DNA from: a bacterium HR17
GTDB taxonomy: Bacteria > Armatimonadota > Fervidibacteria > Fervidibacterales > Fervidibacteraceae
DNA: 64,000 nucleotides
Direction of reading: 5' to 3'
NCBI GenBank assembly: GCA_002898575.1
Contig: BEHT01000001.1
Coordinates: 62,001 to 126,000 of the forward strand
In this document: positions 4,722-61,863 of the stretch, in pieces
How the letters are laid out: each line of letters starts with the position of its first letter
Position numbering within the stretch: the stretch's first letter is position 1
The notes under the pieces: model-generated
Told to the model about the DNA's origin: nothing
Database searches by the model: none
Seen by the model: the letters and a program-made list of their open reading frames with translations, nothing else
Made by a program: the position numbers and the translations under genes

Positions 4722-4935
4722 GTCGGAGGGCGCGCGCCGTTTTTTTCGGCGGTGCTTCGGAGGGCGCGTCTTCTGACGCGCCGAATGGCGGCTCAGGAGA
4801 GCCGCCCTCCGAATAAGCCTTTGGCGGTGGTTTGGAGGGCGCGTCTCCCGACGCGCCGTTTTTTTCGGCGGTGCTTTGGAGGGCGCGTCTTCTGACGCGC
4901 CGAATGGCGGCGGCTCAGGAGAGCCGCCCTCCGAC
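4722..4935. repeat. Palindromic two-hairpin repeats (about three, partly truncated)
   Basis: This intergenic stretch holds about three copies of the element seen in the 36.8-37.4 kb array. The complete unit at 4757-4812 has hairpin 1 GGCGCGTC-TTCT-GACGCGCC (4763-4782) and hairpin 2 GGCGGCTC-AGGA-GAGCCGCC (4787-4806), closed by TCGGAGGG and CCCTCCGA. A neighbouring copy has the TCCC loop instead of TTCT. The block lies 3' of the small membrane-protein gene ending at 5009 and upstream of mutL. The rest of 4640-5008 shows nothing else. Confidence 0.9.
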
Positions 4936-5008
4936 CGAACCCATTTTTCAACACAGCAGTAGGAACAAAATTACCCCCTCTGCCTCTCACAGTCACAGCG
5001 ACACCGTG

Positions 5009-13455: not shown

Positions 13456-13560
13456 CAAGCCCTTGCGGGCTTGTTTACCAAGAAGATGCATACACGCCCT
13501 CCGACGGCGGTTCAGGAGAACCGCCCTCCGAAAGGGGCTTGGTTTACCAAGAAGATGCAT
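13456..13560 (+). repeat. Single palindromic hairpin between 19-bp direct repeats
   Basis: The 19-base sequence GTTTACCAAGAAGATGCAT occurs at 13473-13491 and again at 13542-13560. Between them lies a half copy of the palindromic element: GGCGGTTC-AGGA-GAACCGCC (13506-13525) flanked by CCTCCGA. Just before the first repeat, CAAGCCC-TTGC-GGGCTTG (13456-13473) followed by TTT could be a weak terminator for the tRNA. Confidence 0.7.
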
Positions 13561-36608: not shown

Positions 36609-36805
36609 CGTAGGTGTCACCTCCTGCCAGAAAGGGTCAAGCAACCAAGTCAATTATGCAACCGCAGGGCTACTGTGACGGTCATCACACCTGGTAGCCG
36701 CCTGCCTGAGTGAACCGCCCTCAGAACACCCTACCGTAGCGGAAGCGGGGAAATCATTGCGGACAGTTTGGTCACCTTGCAGGAGGTTGTTTGGCAGGGC
36801 TTGTT

Positions 36806-37430
36806 TTCCTCCGAACGCACCTTCAACATTCGGAGGGCGCATCTCCCGATGCGCCGCTTGCTTTTCGGCGGCTCGGAGAGCCGCCCTCCGAACGCACCTT
36901 CAACATTCGGAGGGCGCATCTCCCGATGCGCCGCTTGCTTTTCGGCGGCTCGGAGAGCCGCCCTCCGAACGCACCTTCAACATTCGGAGGGCGCATCTCC
37001 CGATGCGCCGCTTGCTTTTCGGCGGCTCGGAGAGCCGCCCTCCGAACGCACCTTCAACATTCGGAGGGCGCATCTCCCGATGCGCCGCTTGCTTTTCGGC
37101 GGCTCGGAGAGCCGCCCTCCGAACGCACCTCAACACTCGGAGGGCGCATCTCCTGATGCGCCGCTTTTCCTGCGGCGGCTCGGAGAGCCGCCCTCCGAAC
37201 GCACCTCAACACTCGGAGGGCGCATCTCCTGATGCGCCGCTTTTCCTGCGGCGGCTCAGAGAGCCGCCCTCCGAACACACCTTCAACACTCGGAGGGCGC
37301 ATCTCCTGATGCGCCGCTTTTTCCTTCGGCGGCTCGGGAGAGCCGCCCTCCGAACGCACCTTCAACATTCGGAGGGCGCGTCTCCCGACGCGCCGCTTTT
37401 CCTGCGGCGGCTCGGAGAGCCGCCCTCCGA
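36806..37430. repeat. Tandem array of eight palindromic two-hairpin units
   Basis: Eight units repeat with period 76-79 bases. Each holds hairpin 1, GGCGCATC-TCCC-GATGCGCC or a variant, hairpin 2, GGCGGCTC-GGA-GAGCCGCC, and an outer pairing TTCGGAGGG with CCCTCCGAA, so the unit can fold into a three-way cruciform. The first four units are nearly identical, the next three share the loop TCCT, and the last switches to GGCGCGTC-TCCC-GACGCGCC. Open frames through the array are by-products. The rest of 36609-37476 holds the ends of the flanking genes and no other signal. Confidence 0.95.
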
Positions 37431-51210: not shown

Positions 51211-51241
51211 GGGGCGGTTGGTCTGAGATGGCAGCCGCCCC
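51211..51241 (+). terminator. Hairpin after the Flp pilin gene
   Basis: GGGGCGG (51211-51217) pairs with CCGCCCC (51235-51241), with a 17-base loop, and is followed within 10 bases by TTGAATTTT. Position, 27 bases after the pilin stop, supports a terminator; the T run is not perfect. Confidence 0.45.
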
Positions 51242-51265
51242 GCTCTGTTGAATTTTCCTTCGGCA

Positions 51266-51352
51266 ATGCCTCAAAGGGCGCGTCTCCCGACGCGCCGTTA
51301 TGTTTTGTATGGCATGTCATTTTTCGGCGGCTCAGGAGAGCCGCTCTCCGAC
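51266..51352. repeat. Palindromic two-hairpin element with longer spacer
   Basis: Hairpin 1 GGCGCGTC-TCCC-GACGCGCC and hairpin 2 GGCGGCTC-AGGA-GAGCCG are separated by about 35 bases of AT-richer sequence. The outer arms are degenerate (AAAGGGC and CTCTCCGA). It lies just after the Flp pilin terminator. Confidence 0.85.
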
Positions 51353-51393
51353 CAAATCCGTTGTTCAACACGGCACAGCCGCCCGTTTTTTGT

Positions 51394-61448: not shown

Positions 61449-61482
61449 AATCCGTGGAGACCCGCTGTGGTGAATAATAAGG

Positions 61483-61636
61483 TTCCTTCGGAGGGCGGCT
61501 CTCTGAGCCGCCGAAAAGAGAGAAAAGCGGCGCGTCAAAAGACGCGCCCTCCGAGATGCGAGGGTTCCTTCGGAGGGCGGCTCTCTGAGCCGCCGAAAAG
61601 AGAGAAAAGCGGCGCGTCAAAAGACGCGCCCTCCGA
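61483..61636. repeat. Two palindromic elements in reverse orientation
   Basis: Two near-identical copies, about 82 bases apart. Each reads GGCGGCTC-TCT-GAGCCGCC first and GGCGCGTC-AAAA-GACGCGCC second, closed by TTCGGAGGG and CCCTCCGA. Compared with the 37-kb array the order of hairpins is reversed, so these are inverted. They lie in the 415-base gap between the GldG-like and DUF4340 genes; the rest of that gap shows nothing else. Confidence 0.92.
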
Positions 61637-61863
61637 GGCGTGAAAATTCAACAAAGCAGCGGGAACCGAACGGTTGCGTGCGGGTTGCACACCGTCCCTA
61701 TCGCCTTGTGCTGTCAAACCGCGTTTGCGATAAGCCCCGTTTGCTACAGCGGTTGGGGCAGCTCCCCACTGACGCTCTGGAGCGCATGGAACAGGCGATG
61801 CGGATCAATTGGGCTTTTAATCCGAACGCTCACATACCTAACGCACAATGTGAGGTGATGCCG

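Follow-up and report, generated by a model that had tools for sequence, protein, structure and literature searches.

The palindromic repeats described here probably belong to a miniature transposable element of composite, BOX-like build, in which a double-hairpin core, present n times, stands between a left and a right end. The window, i.e., the whole 64,000-nt stretch of DNA that was analysed, comes from the genome of bacterium HR17, an Armatimonadota MAG of 3.15 Mb in 75 contigs (96% complete), which shares its phylum with Candidatus Zipacnadia. Dispersal of the element in the HR17 genome looks MITE-like and its core looks REPIN-like. The element thereby joins REPIN/BIME palindromes and BOX-type composite MITEs, two kinds of small repeat that are usually treated apart. 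No paper on REP repeats in Armatimonadota was found by literature search.

A preliminary description of the window had reported an eight-unit array and further copies around 4.7–4.9, 13.5, 51.3 and 61.5 kb, and all of them were found:

36808..37430, + strand: tandem array of 8 units, about 77 bp each (period 76–79 bp)
36830..36891, + strand: unit 1 of the array, reading TCGGAG, GGCGCATC TCCC GATGCGCC, GCTTGCTTTTC, GGCGGCTC GGA GAGCCGCC, CTCCGA
37369..37430, + strand: unit 8 of the array, with the other stem-1 allele GGCGCGTC/GACGCGCC and a linker shared with units 5 and 6
51242..51374, + strand: complete single-unit element of 133 bp; its terminal inverted repeats (TIRs; left GCTCTGTTGAATTTT, right GTTGTTCAACACGGC) enclose a type-1 hairpin followed, after a long linker, by a type-2 hairpin
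51232..51240, no strand: left copy of the 9-bp target-site duplication (TSD) CAGCCGCCC beside the 51242..51374 element
51376..51384, no strand: right copy of the same 9-bp TSD CAGCCGCCC
61464..61657, − strand: complete two-unit element of 194 bp with both TIRs, without a clear TSD
4723..4957, + strand: copy with several units, in part degenerate; a right TIR (TTTTTCAACACAGC) is present, whereas a left one was not recognised
13491..13531, − strand: fragment with the type-2 hairpin as GGCGGTTC/GAACCGCC

Each array unit consists of TCGGAG, the stem 1 hairpin, a pyrimidine-rich linker of 11–13 nt, the stem 2 hairpin, CTCCGA and a spacer of the CGCACCTTCAACATTC type. Both hairpins have stems of 8 bp and are framed by TCGGAG/CTCCGA; stem 1 reads GGCGC[A/G]TC...GA[T/C]GCGCC and stem 2 GGCGGCTC...GAGCCGCC. 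A degenerate half-element, GAACCGCCCTCAGA, lies directly upstream of the array at positions 36690–36735.

A pattern search of the genome gave 347 exact type-2 hairpins with the GGAG tag (control 0), and a DNA search gave 288 matches to the repeat. In the 222 kb fetched around matches, we counted 447 tagged half-elements, 197 complete units and 54 clusters; these stretches, to which TIR stretches were added later, were chosen by similarity and are not a random sample. All 197 units pair one type-1 with one type-2 hairpin, and unit orientation is uniform within every cluster of the fetched DNA (0 mixed). Clusters hold 1 to 14 units, and units are more alike within arrays (identity 0.92) than between them (0.85). 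All clusters except one (53/54) are intergenic, and according to simple, crude ORF calls the neighbouring genes are tandem in 19 cases, convergent in 8 and divergent in 5. The TCGGAG tag is near-invariant at the cluster edges (T 94/94, C 92/94).

The other genomes of the phylum are almost without the element. A regular-expression search for whole units gave 0 matches in the relatives, but units did become apparent when the matches were read directly, and a core with the same stems and without TIRs is present in Zipacnadia. In the relatives the core lacks the ends, so it disperses there in some other way. Zipacnadia contigs (L112–L114) also contain several more families of GGAG-tagged hairpins, with the stems AGGCCGGA, GGGCGAGC and GGGCCGGTC.

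The evidence for the outer layer of the element lies outside the palindromes, in TIRs and TSDs that the preliminary description had overlooked. When the flanks were aligned, conservation fell sharply beyond TCGGAG and a second conserved pattern followed (type-1 side GCTTTGTTGAATTTTCCTTTCRGCARTGCC, type-2 side AYNAACCCCATTATTCAACACAGC); its two parts form an imperfect TIR. The TIR pattern GCTKTGTTGAATWWT has 68 matches in the genome and 0 for the reversed control. A core is present within 220 nt of 65 of 67 TIR matches in the fetched DNA, so TIR elements without a core are rare. De-duplicated across strands, 38 elements have both ends. These complete elements span 71 bp (a deleted form) to 983 bp, and several copies show a basic form of about 130 bp with a single unit and a longer linker.

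Many of the copies lie between direct repeats of about 9 bp. A flank match of at least 6 nt was seen in 12 of the 38 elements, where 0.96 were expected and the shuffled maximum was 5, while a clear TSD is missing at the other 26. The flank match was 3.32 nt compared with 0.64 nt after shuffling (highest of 1000 shuffles 1.61). TIRs together with direct repeats are what characterises a MITE that a DDE-type transposase has moved, and by analogy with TIR/TSD elements generally the enzyme would belong to this class. A search of the genome for PF01609 (DDE_Tnp_1), the one DDE family covered, gave no transposase, and none of the 68 TIR matches form a pair spaced 1–3 kb apart.

At least one end is kept in 33 of 50 clusters. 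The remaining 17, among them the array at 36808..37430, have neither, and the core may therefore also move or persist without ends. The recurring spacers of the arrays look like the first part of the right flank (GAACGAACC) followed directly by the last part of the left flank (TTCARCATTC), which indicates that tandem growth multiplied the core along with the flanks closest to it.

In the BOX-type explanation, the ends, imperfect inverted repeats (TGCTTTGTTGAATTTT... / ...ATTATTCAACACAGCA), would be recognised by a transposase supplied in trans, and this putative enzyme would insert the element with TSDs of about 9 bp. The core consists of two REP-like hairpins in inverted orientation, each with a GGAG tag (a REPIN); Candidatus Zipacnadia has REPINs with identical stems, and a same-order genome has very similar ones. 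After insertion, the core with about 9 nt of the right flank and about 10 nt of the left flank would be amplified in tandem to 2–14 units; replication slippage or unequal recombination, aided by the hairpins, is the most likely mechanism. The array at 36808..37430 would then be an expanded core whose ends are past recognition. Against this explanation count the search that gave no transposase with these ends, the 26 end-bounded elements without a clear TSD, the clusters without ends and the relatives in which the core has none.

The organisation closely resembles that of the BOX elements of Streptococcus pneumoniae, which are built as boxA-(boxB)n-boxC, measure 67–637 bp and have TIRs and TSDs (PMC3049150). 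As far as organisation alone is compared, both have a left end that differs from the right end and pairs with it, a TIR, TSDs and a tandem middle module in variable number. They are also similar in size range (67–637 bp there, 71–983 bp here), intergenic position and the lack of a transposase of their own. Unlike in BOX, the module in the middle is REPIN-like, with two hairpins and a GGAG tag, the core is GC-rich, and the host belongs to another phylum.

The core also shares features with the REPIN/BIME repeats associated with RAYTs, in which two hairpins stand in inverted orientation, their 5' tags pointing outward (PMC3116915, PMC3733652, PMC6006769). It joins two different hairpin types, as do the Y/Z BIMEs of Escherichia coli, and occurs in hundreds of copies between genes, in tandem clusters with recurring spacers. 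It differs from them in its tag, which is GGAG (TCGGAG) instead of GT[AG]G, in having no cognate RAYT that could be found in the genome, and in sitting in a TIR/TSD frame. The CGTC-tagged REPs, described as REP-like palindromes without a dedicated transposase (PMC3733652), are similar in that respect; they have another tag and other stems, and a TIR/TSD frame is not part of the account of them drawn on here (PMC3733652). Because the organisation is that of BOX, the GT[AG]G tag of GTAG REPs is lacking and no cognate RAYT was found, the element is best classed as a composite MITE of BOX-like build whose core is REPIN-like and tagged with GGAG.

The main alternative is that the repeats are a REPIN/BIME family and owe their movement to a RAYT (Y1 HUH transposase) whose guide is GGAG in place of GT[AG]G, the TIR frame being a secondary passenger or an insertion site. 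Such a link to a RAYT-like transposase had been proposed in the preliminary description, but the search for it led elsewhere. The single Y1_Tnp/RAYT gene found in the genome adjoins an unrelated REPIN family with a GTAG tag:

L002 4530–6480 (G000 C41:28872–30822), also on C16 and C5: GTAG REPIN family at the only RAYT of the genome

This family reads GGTAG, CGTCGTCC..GGACGACG, linker, CGTCGGGG..CCCCGACG, CTACC and has 39 matches, mostly on three contigs. A GGAG-type RAYT protein used as query revealed no second RAYT gene in the genome (one further match, E 0.41), and we rejected the genome's own RAYT as the direct mover. No cognate RAYT flanked by the hairpins of the GGAG element itself was found in this MAG; since its completeness is 96% and the assembly breaks at arrays, such a gene could be missing from it.

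Other genomes speak more in favour of this alternative. The RAYT genes at L118, L119, L121 and L139 (Zipacnadia, family relatives) have inverted GGAG-tagged hairpins with other stems on both sides, and the Zipacnadia genomes with such RAYTs also share the GGAG core, there without TIRs. In the same-order genome G004, a diverged RAYT (L132) lies among GGAG-tagged REPINs. The gene is RAYT-like and missed by PF01797 (L132 1000–2400, G004 C97), and both stems of its REPINs contain tandem G.A mismatches (GGTGAGGC/GCCGAACC and GGCGAATC/GATGAGCC). Because RAYTs in Zipacnadia, a family relative and G004 all adjoin GGAG-tagged hairpins, GGAG is plausible as a REP tag. At L122 the RAYT has GTAG-tagged flanks, and the REP tag may follow the RAYT lineage. 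An automatic tally of tags at all RAYT loci covers few loci only and missed mismatched stems and overlapping ORFs. The surveyed REP/RAYT literature gives GT[AG]G, CGTC or atypical feet and makes no mention of a GGAG foot.

The REPIN architecture, the near-invariant TCGGAG at the cluster edges and the clusters without ends would all suit movement by such a RAYT. Against it stand the GTAG family served by the only RAYT found in the genome and the lack of these particular stems beside any RAYT found. The rarity of TIR elements without a core also argues against it, as do the TSDs at many copies, which are unexpected of Y1 enzymes, given that those of IS200/IS605 make none (PMC2817692). We therefore regard movement by a GGAG-guided RAYT as unlikely, although the core is REPIN-like, by descent or convergence. 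Two nested mobility systems, with a TIR/TSD MITE carrying a REPIN that is recognised by a RAYT lineage with a GGAG guide, are a tentative further possibility. If this is true, one enzyme could amplify the core and another disperse it. The RAYTs with GGAG hairpins point to a GGAG tag for REP/RAYT pairs, and if that is true such pairs would add a third class of tag to GTAG and CGTC.

A structured RNA or a terminator/attenuator, spread between genes by selection for its function, would fit the intergenic position and the very stable folding of the unit (z about −4 to −6). The Rfam search of the window, however, matched a tRNA and nothing at the element, copy number is variable, the clusters lie between genes of both orientations, and the element is almost missing from the rest of the phylum. 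With TIRs and TSDs indicating mobility as well, we consider such a function very improbable. An assembly artefact or a simple tandem expansion without mobility is hardly credible, since homologous copies with conserved ends and TSDs are dispersed in tens of places and the same kind of core is found in other genomes, even though many contigs end inside arrays, which makes array lengths uncertain.

The stems themselves show covariation. The two stem-1 alleles named in the preliminary description, GGCGCATC/GATGCGCC and GGCGCGTC/GACGCGCC, each occur commonly across the genome, and pair 6 switches between A-T and G-C in many clusters. Among the fetched half-elements, A-T occurs 106 times (35 clusters) and G-C 80 times (30 clusters), with 28 mixed states (16 G.T, 10 A.C and 2 others); with one unit per cluster the numbers are about 25 A-T, 18 G-C and 7 mixed. 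With one unit taken per cluster, the most informative site for this pair is its partner base (MI 0.43, null 0.02), followed by loop 1 (MI 0.30, null 0.14). The top rank of the partner base speaks for pairing over general linkage, though loop 1 is also linked. Both alleles are found together within 14 clusters, and seven linkers were seen with both. As both also occur in Zipacnadia, they may represent an old polymorphism reshuffled by recombination rather than many new compensatory events.

The corresponding claim for stem 2 was overstated. The allele GGCGGTTC/GAACCGCC (pair 6) exists, but it occurs once in the window and seven times in the fetched DNA (3 clusters), beside seven one-sided T.G forms. 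Elsewhere two-sided changes are rare. Stem 1 pair 3 is T-A in 8 units of 3 clusters and also in G004, and further changes of this kind were seen at stem 1 pairs 5 and 8 (1 and 2 units), at stem 2 pair 1 (1 unit) and at stem 2 pair 3 (in G004 and G002). Covariation thus extends, genome-wide, beyond the two sites originally named, contrary to the outcome that was to refute the preliminary description, but its excess is modest: in 51 distinct rows, roughly one per cluster, four pairs changed on both sides against a shuffled mean of 1.4. Pair counts were made on gap-free stems and alignment A2. In the same rows 98.8% of cells pair, and of the 21 cells changed on both sides 17 belong to one pair, so that the covariation is real but concentrated there. 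Mutation bias may contribute, because a transition from G/C to A/T accounts for several of the changes, in some cases at CpG. The idea that pairing is selected or produced by copying holds as far as a pairing constraint is concerned; the data do not separate selection for folding, hairpin-templated correction and reshuffling of two old alleles, any of which would keep the pairing in the proposed mechanism. The clusters offer natural material for studying how arrays of hairpins grow and still keep their pairing.

The loops had been thought to vary freely, but each is limited to a few forms, mostly TCCT/TCTT/TCCC/TTTT in loop 1 and AGA/AGGA/AAAA/GGA in loop 2. A three-way fold of the unit, which had also been suggested, is possible; we rejected it as the main fold, as the minimum-energy structure with both DNA and RNA parameters is a single long imperfect hairpin. 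The covariation tracks the two local hairpins.
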